A stretch of DNA of 64,000 bases. Source: Euhalothece natronophila Z-M001 (GTDB taxonomy: Bacteria > Cyanobacteriota > Cyanobacteriia > Cyanobacteriales > Rubidibacteraceae). The notes under the pieces were generated by a model. The model was not told where the DNA came from. It did not search any database and worked only from the letters and a program-made list of their open reading frames with translations. This document shows, one piece after another, positions 33,110 through 53,078 of the stretch (position 1 is the first letter of the stretch; every line of letters starts with the position of its first letter). The DNA is taken from positions 1,736,001-1,800,000 of the forward strand of contig NZ_CP042326.1 in the NCBI RefSeq assembly GCF_007904085.1. The letters run 5' to 3'. The position numbers and the translations under genes are program-made.

Positions 33110-33354
33110 GGTTGGTCAAAGCTATAAGCTGACGAACGTGCAGACAAGCGTGGTAAGACCTGTAATCAGGCACACTACGTTAATTGAGTCATCACACCCA
33201 AGTGTGAACGCCAGCATTTGGCTCTGTGGGCTATGGATTAATCAAAAGGCGAAAGGTTGATAAGCCTGTGTCCTAGCCGTAAAAAGCTCTTTTAACTTTG
33301 TCGAGGCCAACTTTACTGTTCATAACAGCTTGGCTTAAGAAGCCACTAACTACC
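33110..33354 (+). ncRNA. Candidate IscB omega RNA region
   Basis: 245 bases between the upstream stop and the iscB start, non-coding and rich in short stems: CACAC-CCAA-GTGTG at 33194-33207, GCCA-GCATT-TGGC at 33211-33223, and GTGGTAAGACCTGT...AGGCACACTAC earlier. In known IscB systems the omega RNA is encoded directly upstream and its guide is the sequence left of the element end. If so, the guide here would come from the 3' end of the 32444-33109 gene or just after it. Boundaries are unproven. Confidence 0.6.
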
Positions 33355-34629
33355 ATGTCAAACTATGTGTTTGTAATTGACCAAAACCAAACACCACTAA
33401 AACCAGTCCATCCTAAAAGAGCGAGGCAATTGCTTTCTTTTGGTAAAGCTGCCGTCTTTCGACTGTTTCCTTTCACTCTCATCCTTAAACAAGAGGTGTC
33501 TGAGCCAAATGTCCACCCACTAATCCTGAAAATTGACCCAGGCTCTCAAGTAACAGGCTTCGCTTTAGTTACCGAGGGAGGAGAAGTAGTTTGGAGAATG
33601 CAACTAGAGCATCGTGGAGGGATAATCAAGAAACGTTTAGAACAAAGACGAGCCTTAAGAAGACAGCGACGTTCAAGACTTCGTTATCGAAAGCCTCGTT
33701 TCTTAAACCGTAAGCGCAAAGAAGGATGGCTACCCCCCTCGTTAATGCACAGAGTCCAAACCACTGAGACTTGGGTGAAACGCTTGCTCAAGTTCTGTCC
33801 GATTCAAGAAATCTGGATAGAGAGAGTTAAGTTTGATACCCAGTTGATGGAAAATCCTGAGATTAGTGGCCAGGAATATCAGCAAGGAACCTTGCAAGGC
33901 TATACTGTCCGAGAATACCTCCTCGAAAAGTGGTACAGAAAATGTACTTACTGTAAGAAAGAAGGTATCCCTCTCCAAGTAGAACACATCTATCCTCGGT
34001 CTAAAGGAGGAAGTAACCGAGTGAGCAACCTTGGTCTGGCTTGTGAGAAGTGTAATCAAAAGAAAGGCAATACACTCATTGAAGATTTCTTGAAAAGGAA
34101 ACCAACTCTCCTTGAGAGTGTCCTTAAACAAGCGAAGACTCCTCTTAAAGACACATCAGCAGTTAACGCCACCCGTAAAAAGATTGTCGAGGTAATCTCA
34201 AAACATTCCTCACTCAAAACAGCGACAGGGGCGCAAACCAAGATGAATCGAGTCCGTTTAGGATTACCAAAAGAACATTGTTTAGACGCTGCTTGTGTGG
34301 GAGAGGTTGAGAGGTTAACCATTTTGTCCGATCAACCACTAATGGTGACAGCGACAGGGACAGGAGGGAGACAAAAATGCCAAACTAATAAGTTTGGGTA
34401 TCCAATCAAGCATCGTCCTTTGAGACCAATTCAAGGCTTTCAAACAGGAGACATTGTTAAAGTTGATATCCCGAAAGGGAAAAATCAAGGTCAATGGAGA
34501 GGGCGTTTGTGTCCTTATTCGGATGGAAACTGTGAGATTTACCCGAAAGGTCGTAAAAGACTGGGAACTAAATTATCTTATGTCTCAGAGGTAATGCACC
34601 GTAAAGATGGCTATAAATATCGCCATTAG
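33355..34629 (+). CDS. iscB: RNA-guided nuclease IscB
   Basis: 424 aa from ATG 33355; this is the group ancestral to Cas9. Domains: N-terminal PLMP-type segment (QNQTPLKPVHPKRARQLL, residues 10-27), RuvC-I with Asp61 (LKIDPGSQVTGFAL), Arg-rich bridge helix (EQRRALRRQRRSRLRYRKPR, about 96-115), RuvC-II with Glu156 (IWIERVKFD), HNH with zinc Cys197/200/230/233 and catalytic His211 (QVEHIYPRSKGGS), RuvC-III with His308 and Asp311 (EHCLDAACVG). The C-terminal TAM-interacting part follows. All catalytic residues are present. A TTG 57 bases upstream extends the frame but lies in the RNA region. Confidence 0.93.
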   Translation: MSNYVFVIDQNQTPLKPVHPKRARQLLSFGKAAVFRLFPFTLILKQEVSEPNVHPLILKIDPGSQVTGFALVTEGGEVVWRMQLEHRGGIIKKRLEQRRALRRQRRSRLRYRKPRFLNRKRKEGWLPPSLMHRVQTTETWVKRLLKFCPIQEIWIERVKFDTQLMENPEISGQEYQQGTLQGYTVREYLLEKWYRKCTYCKKEGIPLQVEHIYPRSKGGSNRVSNLGLACEKCNQKKGNTLIEDFLKRKPTLLESVLKQAKTPLKDTSAVNATRKKIVEVISKHSSLKTATGAQTKMNRVRLGLPKEHCLDAACVGEVERLTILSDQPLMVTATGTGGRQKCQTNKFGYPIKHRPLRPIQGFQTGDIVKVDIPKGKNQGQWRGRLCPYSDGNCEIYPKGRKRLGTKLSYVSEVMHRKDGYKYRH

Positions 34630-37827: not shown

Positions 37828-37937
37828 TTATTCAGAATCAATACTAACTGCACCTGCCCCAGTATTAATTAGTAAAAGCAATCCTCCCATGAGTCCTAAA
37901 TTTACTATGCCTTTAGCGTAACGAATAAGGAATCTCT
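37828..37937 (-). pseudogene. DoxX-like C-terminal remnant
   Basis: The reverse strand from about 37932 to the TAA at 37828 reads RFLIRYAKGIVNLGLMGGLL then LLINTGAGAVSIDSE, which resembles the last helix and tail of DoxX family membrane proteins. It begins just past the Argonaute stop in another frame, with no start codon upstream. Probably the 3' stump of a deleted gene. Confidence 0.4.
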
Positions 37938-40141
37938 TATAACCACCATTGACAATCACCTTCGGGGTTAGTGTGATAAAGCCCTTTTAATGTTTTATAG
38001 CCAATCATATCGCTGGCATAAATCGGAACTGGAAGCCTTGGTTCTTGATAGGAACCATGATGTAATAAACATAACTTAAAAGTTGCTTCTAAAACTAACT
38101 TGAACTCAGGAACATCCCCTTCTTCTCGAATCGTAATTCTAATGGGATTGGCAATTCCCACTGATTGCTGTGGCCGCGTCGTAACAACAGTAGCGGCGCG
38201 ATTGGAATGTCGGAAAATTAAGAAACGATGGGGAATTTGTAGTTGTTTTTTGCCGTTTTGAAGTTGGTGGTAGTTAAATAAGCGACAAGTTTTAGTTTTA
38301 GTCACTTCAACAAAAATAAAATTGGTATTATTTGCTTTTCCTCTTTCATTTAAAAAATCAATTTCTTTTCCTCGGAATCGCCCATCACGAAACATTAAAA
38401 CAGTTTTATTAGCTAAGTCTTGTTGCGGAGTAAGTTTCCTCAGAATTTTTGGAGTTACTTCTTCACCTTCTAAACGATCTTGTTCTAAATAATATTTAAT
38501 AAATTCTCCTTGCTTACCATACAAGCGGACACAAGCACAAGCATTTTGAGTCCCGTTTCCTTTACTTTTTCGTAATCTAGCAACATCTAAACCTAAAAAA
38601 CAATCAGCTACTTTTAAAGGTTGTGCTAAAACAAAAGGAAGGTTTCCTAATTTAGCCAGAATTCCTAACACAAGGTTGTTAATAATATAGCGATTATTGA
38701 GGTTTTCTACCTTGATCATTTGACTGGGAATGCCCTGCTTTAATAATTGTTGCGAAATATGGTGATAGTAACTTCCCTGACTAGTATCATCGAGTTGCTG
38801 ATCTCCTTCAGGAAGAATGGTTAAGAATAAATGAGGTTTTAGCGCGATCGCTCTTTTTAGTTCACTATCAATTTTAGCAACATCATCTTCTGACATTTGA
38901 CCACTGACTTCTATGGGAATCTTTTTAATAAATTCAACTTGGAAGCCAACTTCTTCAAAGCTACTTGTCAATTCATTTAATAAATTTTTGGCTTTGTCTT
39001 TACACAGTTTCAAAGCGACTGTTTTAATTTTTTTCTCTTGGGCAAAATTTTGATGACAAGAAAATACTCCCCCTTGTGTTAAGCCCTTTTTAATTGAATC
39101 ACGGGGAAATTGCTTACCTTTTCCAAAGAGAAGTTGAACTGTGTCAAGTTGAAATTTATTAGAATGAAAGAATATATCTTGATTATCAATGGAGTTAACA
39201 TAATCTTTACTAACTTGAATTCCCCAATCTTTTAAAATTGGTTGTACAAACTTTTTTCCTTGTTCTAAAAGGTCAGTCCATTGTGCAAGTGAAATTTTTG
39301 CTAATTTGCGATATCTTTCATACTGATCTAATCCAATAAGATGGCAATTTTTAGGATTAATACTTAATTCTAAGCCGTCAATGACATAATCACCATAACT
39401 ATCTGTATTATTTTGTTTAACCGAAACAACTAAATCTTCATCATCACTATTTTGGATAATTTCACGAGTTTTCGGGATTAAATCATAACTTAAAAGCCGA
39501 TCGCGCTCAGTTTTACAAGTTCCAATAATACTATCAATAACCCCTGTGCGATTAATAAAACGGTTTTTAACGGCGAGTTTTAAAAGTTTTCCTTCGTCTT
39601 TATTATGTCGTAACCAATAGTCTTTTATCGTTTCTGTTGGTTTAATACTGGTTTTCCAATTCAGCGCGATTCCTGCTTGATTGGGAAAAAAGGTTTCAGG
39701 GATAACTTCTAATTGACGGTAAATTTGATAAAACTCTTTTTCAATTAAACTAAGTTCAAGCCTTTGTTTAGAGGTAGATAAGATAACTCGTACTAATTGA
39801 GAGATAATGGAGGTTGGAATAGAAGAAAAATCAACAGGGGTTAGGGTTAAATCTAAATTACCAAATTGAGGGCGTAACCGTTGCGCGATCGCGTTATAAT
39901 CTTCTTGCCAATTGGTTTGATCAGTGGTATTACTAGGATGAGAAAGGAGCCAAAAATTTCCTTGTTCATAAACAGCTTTGACCGTCGAATTTTTCGCCGA
40001 AAACTGATAAGCAATTTTGCGTCCTAGTTCTATAGATAAATTAGAAACAGTATGAAAACAAAAAACTTGCGACGTAGAAGATAAAGTAACTTGTAAAATA
40101 GTACTGATATAATTAGAACTATTCACTGAATAATGGGTCAT
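37937..40141 (-). CDS. ago: Prokaryotic Argonaute, long, catalytic type
   Basis: 734 aa. The PIWI tetrad appears intact: Asp519 (FLGLDVARLRKS), Glu finger within LEGEEV (558-561), Asp586 (MFRDGRFRG), Asp711 (YASDMIGYKT). N, PAZ and MID regions fill residues 1-500. Length and motif text resemble cyanobacterial Agos such as the one of Synechococcus elongatus (SeAgo), a DNA-guided DNA nuclease. It overlaps the Cas4-like gene by 23 bases (ATGACCCATTATTC lies in its last codons). Guide type inferred as DNA from relatives. ATG at 40141. Confidence 0.92.
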   Translation of the reverse strand: MTHYSVNSSNYISTILQVTLSSTSQVFCFHTVSNLSIELGRKIAYQFSAKNSTVKAVYEQGNFWLLSHPSNTTDQTNWQEDYNAIAQRLRPQFGNLDLTLTPVDFSSIPTSIISQLVRVILSTSKQRLELSLIEKEFYQIYRQLEVIPETFFPNQAGIALNWKTSIKPTETIKDYWLRHNKDEGKLLKLAVKNRFINRTGVIDSIIGTCKTERDRLLSYDLIPKTREIIQNSDDEDLVVSVKQNNTDSYGDYVIDGLELSINPKNCHLIGLDQYERYRKLAKISLAQWTDLLEQGKKFVQPILKDWGIQVSKDYVNSIDNQDIFFHSNKFQLDTVQLLFGKGKQFPRDSIKKGLTQGGVFSCHQNFAQEKKIKTVALKLCKDKAKNLLNELTSSFEEVGFQVEFIKKIPIEVSGQMSEDDVAKIDSELKRAIALKPHLFLTILPEGDQQLDDTSQGSYYHHISQQLLKQGIPSQMIKVENLNNRYIINNLVLGILAKLGNLPFVLAQPLKVADCFLGLDVARLRKSKGNGTQNACACVRLYGKQGEFIKYYLEQDRLEGEEVTPKILRKLTPQQDLANKTVLMFRDGRFRGKEIDFLNERGKANNTNFIFVEVTKTKTCRLFNYHQLQNGKKQLQIPHRFLIFRHSNRAATVVTTRPQQSVGIANPIRITIREEGDVPEFKLVLEATFKLCLLHHGSYQEPRLPVPIYASDMIGYKTLKGLYHTNPEGDCQWWL

Positions 40142-40928
40142 AATAGTTACAGATTGATGTAAAGGGACAATAGTTACAAACCTTTCCAGGTGAGGCTGGA
40201 AAAATCTGATTAAATTTGTCGGGAGAGCGACGATAAGCGTTGATTTGTTGTTGGTTTTTCTGTGCGATGTCGATTAAGTTTTTAGCGACTAAATTTAATT
40301 CCTCATCTGTAGCAGAATAAATCTCCGATTCTTGGGCTAATTCAAGATGATAAAATGAAGCAGTGACCGTTTGATTAGGGTATAATTTTTGTCCTGCCAA
40401 TAAATAAACTAAACTTTGCCTAAGATCAGGTATAAACTGACCTTTCCCTGTTTTAAAATCTAGAATATGGATTCCCCCATTTTCTTGATTGAGAATACAA
40501 TCGTAAGCAAATAATAGTTTAGCTTGCCTGTTACCATCTTTTAATATCACTTCCGAGAAATTATTTTCTTCACCTGAAGTAAGCGTTAAAACTGATTTAT
40601 TTTGCAAAAAAGGATAATGGAGATATTGTTTCAAAATCCATTGGAGACGATGTTGGACTTCTACCACTTCTTGGTCTAAGTTTAGCACTTTTTGAGCCAC
40701 ATAATTAAGCCCTTCTTGATTTAAAGATTCAGGATTATGATATAAATAGTAAACGGCTTTTTGTGCAAGTTTTCCAATTTTTTGAGGCGTTGTATCTTGT
40801 TGGCTAAGTAAATTTACTTCCGGTTCTTTCTTTCTAGCGCGAAGAAAACCGCGTTTGTGATGACAATGGTATTCCTCTTTTCCCAGTTGGGGTTGAAACT
40901 GCGACCATAAAGAATAGGACACCCACAT
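40119..40928 (-). CDS. Cas4-like PD-(D/E)XK nuclease with Fe-S cysteines
   Basis: 269 aa from ATG 40928 (a TTG at 40949 would add 7 residues). Motif order of Cas4/RecB-type exonucleases: Cys22, Asp143 (LFAYDCILN), Asp157-x-Lys159 (IHILDFKTGKG), QSLVY at 171-175 (QxxxY), then Cys251, Cys254 and Cys260 (VCNYCPFTSIC). The four cysteines should hold a 4Fe-4S cluster. No other cas genes nearby. Coupled to the Argonaute gene downstream, which suggests processing of guides or target DNA for it. Confidence 0.85.
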   Translation of the reverse strand: MWVSYSLWSQFQPQLGKEEYHCHHKRGFLRARKKEPEVNLLSQQDTTPQKIGKLAQKAVYYLYHNPESLNQEGLNYVAQKVLNLDQEVVEVQHRLQWILKQYLHYPFLQNKSVLTLTSGEENNFSEVILKDGNRQAKLLFAYDCILNQENGGIHILDFKTGKGQFIPDLRQSLVYLLAGQKLYPNQTVTASFYHLELAQESEIYSATDEELNLVAKNLIDIAQKNQQQINAYRRSPDKFNQIFPASPGKVCNYCPFTSICNYYDPLFSE

Positions 40929-40970: not shown

Positions 40971-41262
40971 GTGAGCTACTCCCGTTAAATCGAAGATTCT
41001 AACGGGAGCTTCCTACCCAATCGGCTGCTTTTCTAATCGTAGGAAAAGAGAAGTCTTACACCAAGGCGATAGGCGAACAGCCCGGCTCCCGAGCTTTATA
41101 GATAATTGGATGGAAGAGAATCAAAAATTCTTTTATATCTTGGCTTGGTTTTCGCCGAAAAAAGTTCCCCATCTGAAACTTTTTCGATGATAGCACGACT
41201 GTTCTCATTCATCTCACCGACAATTCAAAGATTCTGTCGGGAGACTTCTGAGAACGGATAGT
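40971..41262 (-). mobile_element. IS200/IS605-type right-end remnant with two similar hairpins
   Basis: Read leftward: GAAGTCTCCCGACAGAATCT then TTGAATTGTCGG-TGAG (stem 41217-41240), and 230 bases on, GAAGCTCCCGTTAGAATCTT then CGATTTAACGGGAGTAGCTCAC (stem 40979-41008, 9 bp). The two share GAAG, the CCCG..AGAATCTT..CGG loop, and a TGAG/GCTCAC tail. Between them is a conserved-looking structured sequence and no ORF. This looks like a right end of an IS605-type element (with guide RNA scaffold) that has lost tnpB. Confidence 0.5.
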
Positions 41263-41284
41263 TAAATTTATTTCTGCTTTGTTA

Positions 41285-51750: not shown

Positions 51751-51830
51751 GTTTCAATCCCTCATAGGGATTATTGGTTATTGAAACGTTGGCTGATCAA
51801 GAAAAATTCCGTCACATTACCAGTTTCAAT
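51751..51830 (+). CRISPR. Orphan CRISPR repeat, spacer and truncated repeat
   Basis: One complete 37-bp repeat (51751-51787) identical to those at 52827-53078, a 35-bp non-repeat (51788-51822), then GTTTCAAT at 51823-51830, the first 8 bases of the repeat, before the match stops. The preceding GTCGAAAC at 51711-51718, 32 bases before the repeat, may be another degenerate repeat end. This is the stranded far part of the nearby array. Confidence 0.85.
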
Positions 51831-51897
51831 AGGCTGGAGGGCTGAACCAGAATCTATCTCCTCCTGTATTCTCCGATTCACCGGGAGAGCGTCAAAG

Positions 51898-52536
51898 CTA
51901 CGGGTTTAAGATAATAGTCAAATCTAGAATAAAACCAGGTAGAACCTCTTCACCGAAGAGTTGAGGAGGGGAATCGACAGAAAAATTCAACACTTCTACA
52001 TCTTGCTGGGGTCGATAAATTTCTACCAAAGGGGTTTGCGGATCGATTAACCACCCTAAACGCGCCCCATTATCTCGATATTCTTGCATTTTAAGGCGTA
52101 ATTTTTCCAAAACATCACTCTCGGAACGCGAGGGGCTGTCTGCCGAGGTGTCCTCGGCAGCTTGTACGCCCCGCAATTCAATGACAAAATCGGGACAAAT
52201 GGGCGGAAAGCGTTTTTGTTCTTCTTTAGTTAAAGCTTGCCAACGCTCTAATTTAACCCAAGAAACATCAGGACAACGATAAGCACCACTAGGTAATTTA
52301 AATTCTGTAGAAGAGTCAAAGACCTTTCCTAACTTGGCTTGACGGTTCCATAAGTTTAAATCTGTAGTTAAATTAGAATTTCTGATTCCGCTTTCTCCGC
52401 CTGTAGGAGACATAATAACTAATTCTCCAGCTTGCGTAAGTTCTAATTGCCAGGGTTCATTAGCAATGCAGAGTTGATAAAATTGCTCATCGGTTAAACC
52501 AACTGCTGGAGGTACATTTAAAGTGAGGGATTCCAT
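51898..52536 (-). CDS. Uma2-family (DUF820) nuclease with an inserted palindrome-coded segment
   Basis: 212 aa. Uma2 core: PAVGLTDEQFYQLCIANEPWQLEL, CPDVSWVKLERW (Asp), PDFVIELR (catalytic region), RLKMQEYRDNGARLGWLIDP. Usual members read PDFVIELRSPSDxLxxL; here an extra 15-16 residues (GVQAAEDTSADSPSR) split ELR and SESDVLEKL and are encoded by a GC-rich palindrome at 52131-52173. Frame is kept. Located between two CRISPR fragments. Confidence 0.85.
   Translation of the reverse strand: MESLTLNVPPAVGLTDEQFYQLCIANEPWQLELTQAGELVIMSPTGGESGIRNSNLTTDLNLWNRQAKLGKVFDSSTEFKLPSGAYRCPDVSWVKLERWQALTKEEQKRFPPICPDFVIELRGVQAAEDTSADSPSRSESDVLEKLRLKMQEYRDNGARLGWLIDPQTPLVEIYRPQQDVEVLNFSVDSPPQLFGEEVLPGFILDLTIILNP
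52131..52173. repeat. GC-rich palindromic element inside a Uma2 ORF
   Basis: Inner perfect stem CTGCCGAGG / CCTCGGCAG (9 bp, loop TGT) at 52140-52160; outer pair GGGGC 52132-52136 with GCCCC 52168-52172. Much more GC-rich than its surroundings and in frame (length a multiple of three). Looks like a small mobile palindrome unit. Confidence 0.8.
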
Positions 52537-52590
52537 GATGATCTGTTAGTGCGTTCCGTCACAATACTACTACCAATAGCTTATTTAGCT

Positions 52591-52716
52591 ATGTTCGTTC
52601 GACAAAAGCGATCGCCTTTAACTATCTTAACCGCCCTAACTGTTCTCACTGTTTTCTCAGCGACCCAAGCCATCGTATCCGTTTTGTGTATCTTCCTAAA
52701 TATACTTCTTGGATAA
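52591..52716 (+). pseudogene. Possible truncated exported protein
   Basis: 41 codons: MFVRQKRSPLTILTALTVLT, then VFSATQAIVSVLC before TAA. It reads like a signal peptide (basic start, hydrophobic core, ATQA cleavage) with no mature protein behind it. Could be the stub of a gene broken when the CRISPR region was rearranged. Confidence 0.3.
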
Positions 52717-52826
52717 TTTTTGATTATCTCTCTCACACCTTGTTAAAAGAACGACGTTAACTCGTTTCTGCTTATTTGAGCTCAATTCTCAATAAGTATA
52801 GAGAGCAGAGGGGCGCGATCGCGCTC

Positions 52827-53078
52827 GTTTCAATCCCTCATAGGGATTATTGGTTATTGAAACGAAGCTGGAATTGAGTGCGTTTTCCAGTTTAGCTCTG
52901 TTTCAATCCCTCATAGGGATTATTGGTTATTGAAACAAACTGAAAAAAGCTATCTCAAATTGTGGAGTATGTTTCAATCCCTCATAGGGATTATTGGTTA
53001 TTGAAACCTTGTCTTGGCTGTGCCTTGGGCGCATTCTTATTGTTTCAATCCCTCATAGGGATTATTGGTTATTGAAAC
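52827..53078 (+). CRISPR. CRISPR array, four identical 37-bp repeats, three spacers
   Basis: Repeats at 52827-52863, 52900-52936, 52971-53007 and 53042-53078, identical to the base. Ends GTTTCAAT...ATTGAAAC are inverted; a second internal pair CCCT/AGGG gives nested symmetry. Spacers of 36, 34 and 34 bp. No cas genes in this window. The ATTGAAAC end fits the 8-nt crRNA tag of type III and some type I systems. Spacer targets unknown. Confidence 0.97.

Follow-up and report, generated by a model that had tools for sequence, protein, structure and literature searches.

A pair of overlapping genes in the window, by which we mean the whole 64,000-nucleotide stretch of the Euhalothece natronophila Z-M001 genome analysed here, encodes what we read, with a probability of roughly 0.85, as a divergent ACE1-pAgo immune module, in which a prokaryotic Argonaute (pAgo) would cut invading DNA and its partner nuclease, ACE1, would most likely make or trim the guides. 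This reading draws on the fold and sequence matches of both proteins, their matches to both PADLOC models, the intact active sites, the pairing of the two genes in 18 out of 18 cases, the co-variation of their products, and signs of mobility. The window operon is an ordinary but unusually divergent ACE1-pAgo, a known kind of system. We also lean, with less assurance, towards a wider picture in which cyanobacterial ACE1-pAgo is normally inducible through a CapH-type repressor and a CapP-type protease, the window copy has been rewired with loss of this switch, and an ACE1 paralogue, confined mainly to one cyanobacterial family, is fixed in place and independent of Ago.

Operon anatomy

The ACE1-Ago operon is confirmed as the earlier note described it, the ORF coordinates agreeing with two minus-strand genes that overlap by 23 bases (Table 1). 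Both reading frames are open in the window and every active-site residue that was checked is intact; the ACE1 frame has an alternative TTG start reaching 40949, which would lengthen the product to 276 aa. The overlap may couple translation of the two genes, and ACE1 would be made just before Ago from the same message.

Table 1. Positions of the operon, its upstream flank and the related regulator loci (window coordinates)
Feature	Position	Strand	Basis or remark
pAgo, long catalytic prokaryotic Argonaute, 734 aa	37937..40141	(-)	ORF, Piwi, PADLOC, fold
ACE1, Argonaute-associated Cas4 family nuclease, 269 aa from ATG	40119..40928	(-)	ORF, PADLOC, fold
ACE1 end / Ago start overlap, 23 bases	40119..40141	(-)	ORF coordinates
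Non-coding repeat, ~298 nt	40971..41268	(+)	directly upstream of the operon and outside the conserved system
Regulator-pair loci of relatives: L064, L073, L085, L089, L103, L069, L134-L141			upstream of ACE1

The ACE1 nuclease

By sequence the nuclease matches Pfam PDDEXK_1 (40.7 bits, cut-off 22), the PADLOC model Aga_Cas4-like_Nuc (305 bits) and MaACE1 of PDB entry 9iac (223.3 bits). AlphaFold models were built for both operon proteins from alignments of the window protein with its relatives, and the structure prediction proposed in the earlier note gave confident models, with pLDDT values of 89.5 for the nuclease and 86.0 for Ago, whose best PDB folds are ACE1 and CtAgo, respectively. For the nuclease these are MaACE1 9iac (E 1.5e-28, TM 0.91, 44% identity) and CtACE1 9iab, both entitled 'Argonaute-associated Cas4 family protein 1'. 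Residues C22, D143 (codon 40500-40502), D157 and K159 (D157-F-K159, 40452-40460), Q171, Y175, C251, C254 and C260 show no variation across the 56 ACE1-like proteins aligned; C22, C251, C254 and C260 are likely Fe-S ligands, the Fe-S character of ACE1 being suggested by these four conserved cysteines.

The Cas4 pattern noticed earlier therefore stands as far as the PD-(D/E)XK residues and the four cysteines go, but the family is the Argonaute-associated Cas4-like one and not CRISPR Cas4, membership of which is rejected on a TIGR00372 score of 15.5 bits against a cut-off of 65. CRISPR Cas4 does share the PD-(D/E)XK core and the arrangement of one N-terminal and three C-terminal cysteines, and gives weak matches to the window nuclease; its structures nevertheless align poorly (TM 0.29-0.35 on the query), and the window gene is not associated with cas1, the only Cas1 match of the genome lying on another contig (C2). 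In the listed ORFs that flank the operon we noticed no cas genes, in line with the description of a tight pair without other cas genes.

Elsewhere in the window, four or five CRISPR-DR5 repeats lie in two places within 51751-53078, with a Uma2 ORF (51898-52536) between them. An IscB-like protein (RRXRR + HNH, 33298-34629) is preceded by a HEARO-like RNA at 33115-33316 that scores 68 bits, under the gathering score of 83. A separate observation concerns locus L003 (L003:910-3459), where a single 849-aa protein combines a 3'-5' exonuclease with a PDDEXK_1 nuclease and an FtsK/SpoIIIE translocase.

The Argonaute

Ago scores 61.6 bits against Pfam Piwi (cut-off 28.9), 577.5 bits against the PADLOC model for class II pAgo and, by sequence, 371.7 bits against CtAgo 9iad, a structure with the 3' end of the guide DNA bound; the same entry is the best PDB fold match of the AlphaFold model (E 4.8e-67, TM 0.80 on the query). 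The full-length Ago fold and the DEDX tetrad are both present, which places the window protein among the catalytic long-A pAgos. Across 18 aligned Agos, D519 (38585-38587), E560 (38462-38464), E561 and D586 (38384-38386) are identical in all, and position 711 (38009-38011 in the window) is D in 15, H in two and missing in one, which has an in-frame stop in its frame. The tetrad proposed in the earlier note, with the glutamate placed somewhere in E558-561, is thus intact, and the glutamate can be narrowed down: since E558 varies among the aligned Agos, and E560 stays invariant also when three Agos lacking an ACE1 are added, E560 is most likely the catalytic residue.

Proposed mechanism

With both active sites intact and the pairing found in 18 of 18 cases, the idea that a Cas4-like nuclease partners a catalytic long Argonaute is supported. 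ACE1 would be a single-stranded DNA (ssDNA) nuclease, its most likely tasks being to make or trim guides and to work with, or on, Ago; Ago would bind short DNA guides, and its DEDD site would then cut complementary invading DNA, be it plasmid, phage or other incoming DNA. For the window pair we infer the guide type, the nuclease activity, the formation of a complex and the role in defence. Guide making or trimming by ACE1 is plausible; in relatives ACE1 is reportedly (Swarts group, Mol Cell, 2025) an ssDNA endonuclease that processes guides.

The opposite order of events, in which ACE1 takes no part in guide making and instead degrades the single strands left once Ago has nicked the target, is in our estimation unlikely, though it would suit the more distant fold matches of ACE1, which are the nuclease domains of the end-processing complexes AdnAB, Dna2 and AddAB. 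Ago keeps its own catalytic site and so needs no surrogate nuclease, and the published work on relatives reportedly favours guide processing.

Conservation and divergence of the ACE1-pAgo pair

In a survey of 386 cyanobacterial genomes, an ACE1-like match turned up in 57 and an Ago match in 27. After removal of four genomes with weak matches (G200, G222, G299, G321) and of G249 (a partial match in an oddly long frame), the ACE1-like set comprises 56 proteins, from 52 genomes with second copies in four of those. Every Ago with E<1e-90 (18/18) is directly preceded by ACE1 on the same strand, and the order ACE1 then Ago, overlapping or three bases apart, holds in all 18 pairs. With start codons chosen by homology, the genes overlap in 12 pairs (by 23 bases in the window, four bases in ten and one base in one) and are separated by three bases in the remaining six, all of one genus. 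The earlier note had held that absence of the pair from other genomes would count against it; since order, strand and tight spacing are kept in 18 of 18 cyanobacterial pairs, that objection falls away. The nine remaining genomes with an Ago match lack a linked ACE1; G130, among these, holds an unlinked ACE1 copy and only a fragment of an Ago.

The identities of ACE1 and Ago co-vary across pairs (Mantel r 0.93, 0 of 5000 permutations, with relatedness left in). Of the 18 pairs, that of the window diverges most, at 45% (ACE1) and 33% (Ago) identity to the nearest other pair, and its branches are very long (2.54 in the ACE1 tree and 1.89 in the Ago tree, where its placement is weak at support 49/37), so that its function could have shifted. 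The nuclease is absent from the other eight genomes of the family to which the window's genome belongs, and a relative of the pair is carried on a mobilizable plasmid of Nostoc sp. CENA543, both of which fit a mobile defence module. A pattern scan of genome contigs and viral contigs gave no confirmed close relatives, and the phage records gave no match. As for synteny with the genus, the best matches of the flanking genes lie far apart in its two single-contig genomes, and no empty site was resolved there.

ACE1-like nucleases without Argonaute

ACE1-like copies with an intact active site and no linked Ago number 38, indicating that this type of nuclease does not need Ago in general. In a tree with long branches and no outgroup, these 38 copies and the 18 Ago-linked ones form the two sides of a 100/100 branch, and four genomes hold one copy of each kind; rooting the split by the Ago tree failed because of weak support. 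For 29 of the 38 Ago-free copies (L066-L102) the surrounding genes were read, to no more than 2.1 kb on one side in a single case, and in 26 of the 29 a gene with a TASHNP motif, which from the motif we take to be phosphoglucomutase-like, lies nearby. An intact active site and a largely constant location suggest that this clade has a chromosomal role independent of Ago.

It might be argued from the 38 intact, mostly fixed chromosomal copies that ACE1 works as a repair-type nuclease and has no tie to Ago beyond their common operon. We consider this improbable, as the Ago-linked copies are all on one side of the 100/100 branch and ACE1 lies directly upstream of Ago in every one of the 18 pairs.

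A predicted CapH/CapP-type switch beside the operons of relatives

A recurring feature of the relatives is a divergent pair of genes, encoding a helix-turn-helix (HTH) protein and an M78 (ImmA/IrrE) peptidase, beside ACE1 in 14 of the 18 linked loci, the window being counted among the 18; the linked loci are not independent, since one genus contributes six near-identical copies to the 14 loci with regulators. The M78 peptidases match PADLOC capP in 14/14 (best 3.9e-23) and their HEIGH motif is invariant, and an M78 profile run against the PDB found one protein, CapP 7t5t (E 4.3e-6). The HTH proteins match capH in 14/14, yet also match related HTH and RmrA models. All four genes (HTH, M78, ACE1, Ago) are annotated in a row in the record of the Nostoc sp. 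CENA543 plasmid. The palindrome GTTGAC-N6-7-GTCAAC, with at most one mismatch, occurs in the 500 bases upstream of ACE1 in 13 of the 14 loci, compared with a mean of 0.02 in Markov shuffles; this enrichment is overstated, because the pattern was derived from the same sequences and six loci are near-copies, and the palindrome recurs in lineages beyond those six.

The regulator pair is present in 14/18 Ago-linked and 0/29 Ago-free loci (compared by a Fisher test that ignores relatedness). No M78 match was found within the flanks read at the 29 Ago-free loci, one of which (L080) shows a short HTH similarity of 34-37 residues without an M78 match, nor in the nine Ago-matching genomes that lack a linked ACE1. 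Besides the window, the regulators are missing in three other pairs, those of G038, G341 and G013, the last of which retains a single weak palindrome.

Two variations on this arrangement were observed: the stretch separating ACE1 from the HTH gene holds a small conserved ORF of about 80 codons, starting MKKQ, in the three genomes G105, G201 and G207 (loci L103, L140, L141), and in G105 (L140:9069-10136) a single protein carries both the HTH regulator and an M78 peptidase, with a second M78 gene next to it. The regulator pair is not exclusive to ACE1-pAgo, as M78 matches at E<1e-30 occur in 32 genomes. Pairs away from ACE1 were followed at 18 loci (L146-L163; G357, G324 and G207:C198, also at E<1e-30, were left out). 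There the pair stands opposite another, uncharacterised operon, with one coiled-coil family in 11 of the 18, a count that rises to 15 of the 18 once two further recurring families are included; five proteins at one such locus have no Pfam match. A looser form of the palindrome is seen at 15 of these 18 loci, as a raw count made without a shuffled comparison.

Activated by ssDNA, CapP cleaves CapH, which releases adjacent immune operons that include CBASS and Bub, as described in passages of PMC13373217, and Deinococcus PprI works similarly according to passages of PMC10904395. By analogy, the CapH/CapP-type pair and the palindromes predict that in most relatives ACE1-pAgo would be under repressor-protease control and induced by ssDNA. 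A CapH-type repressor would sit on the GTTGAC-N6-7-GTCAAC operators in the shared promoter until a CapP-type M78 protease, switched on by ssDNA from damage, invasion or phage replication, cleaved it and released ACE1-Ago; the ssDNA signal might also be the raw material for guides made by ACE1. Compared with the known CapH+CapP immune operons, the 14 loci share the divergent HTH and M78 genes, which the window locus is without, and the operon that would be under control in the relatives is an Argonaute system, the word Argonaute being absent from the main text of PMC13373217. Among open-licence papers we found no report linking pAgo with ImmA/IrrE/CapP-type control.

The promoter region of the window operon

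At the window locus, the position of the divergent promoter and CapH/CapP-type genes of the relatives is occupied by the repeat listed in Table 1. No HExxH frame was found within 3.5 kb upstream of the operon, no match to an M78 peptidase of the relatives' type anywhere in the genome, and no palindromic operator with up to two mismatches in the 700 bases upstream of ACE1; elsewhere in the genome the operator, with up to one mismatch, occurs at chance level (10 compared with 9 in the control). The window copy lacks a CapH/CapP-type switch and is probably expressed without such control. A promoter scan of the operon returned 12 sites against 11.5 expected, one of them spanning the repeat edge.

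Near-full versions of the repeat, 97-99% identical to it, occur at seven other places in the genome, and an additional copy (G000:C1:3118021-3119283, L113) is split by an insert of about 965 bases in which no ORF exceeds 71 aa. It folds better than shuffled sequences (z -3.2), and an identity as HEARO/omega-RNA was rejected, there being no Rfam match at E<=1.

That the window copy is a decaying or inactive remnant, as its long branches, the absence of regulators and operator and the mobile repeat adjoining the operon start might suggest, is hard to credit given its open frames, the intactness of all checked active-site residues and the confident AlphaFold models (pLDDT 89.5 and 86.0).

Relation to known systems

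The system is not new, as both the names and PDB structures exist: MaACE1 9iac, CtACE1 9iab and CtAgo 9iad were released on 2025-04-23. The window pair resembles them in nuclease family (44% identity, TM 0.91), in Ago type (TM 0.80), in gene order with near-overlap and in the active-site residues; it differs in its overlap (23 bases versus 4), in a two-residue insertion before D168, and in missing the CapH/CapP-type neighbours and operator of the relatives. That pAgo is associated with Cas4-related nucleases was already in the literature, as the earlier note had said, and was noted in 2009. The stand-alone long-A pAgo of Synechococcus elongatus, SeAgo, is likewise a catalytic long Argonaute of a cyanobacterium; the passages of PMC10653904 describe no ACE1 gene in an operon with SeAgo, and report three S. 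elongatus genes that each lower the maintenance of an RSF1010 plasmid, namely ago, a Cas4-like gene and one of the PD-(D/E)XK type.

Conclusions

The interest of these findings centres on the regulatory pattern in the relatives and on the Ago-free ACE1 clade. The regulatory pattern would bear on how immune Argonautes spare the host and on when their guides are loaded. If sensing of ssDNA does release ACE1-pAgo, a single trigger would govern both expression and guide supply, and a damage-inducible Argonaute defence would be directly testable, with the unregulated natural variant in the window and the Ago-free ACE1 clade providing ready comparisons.
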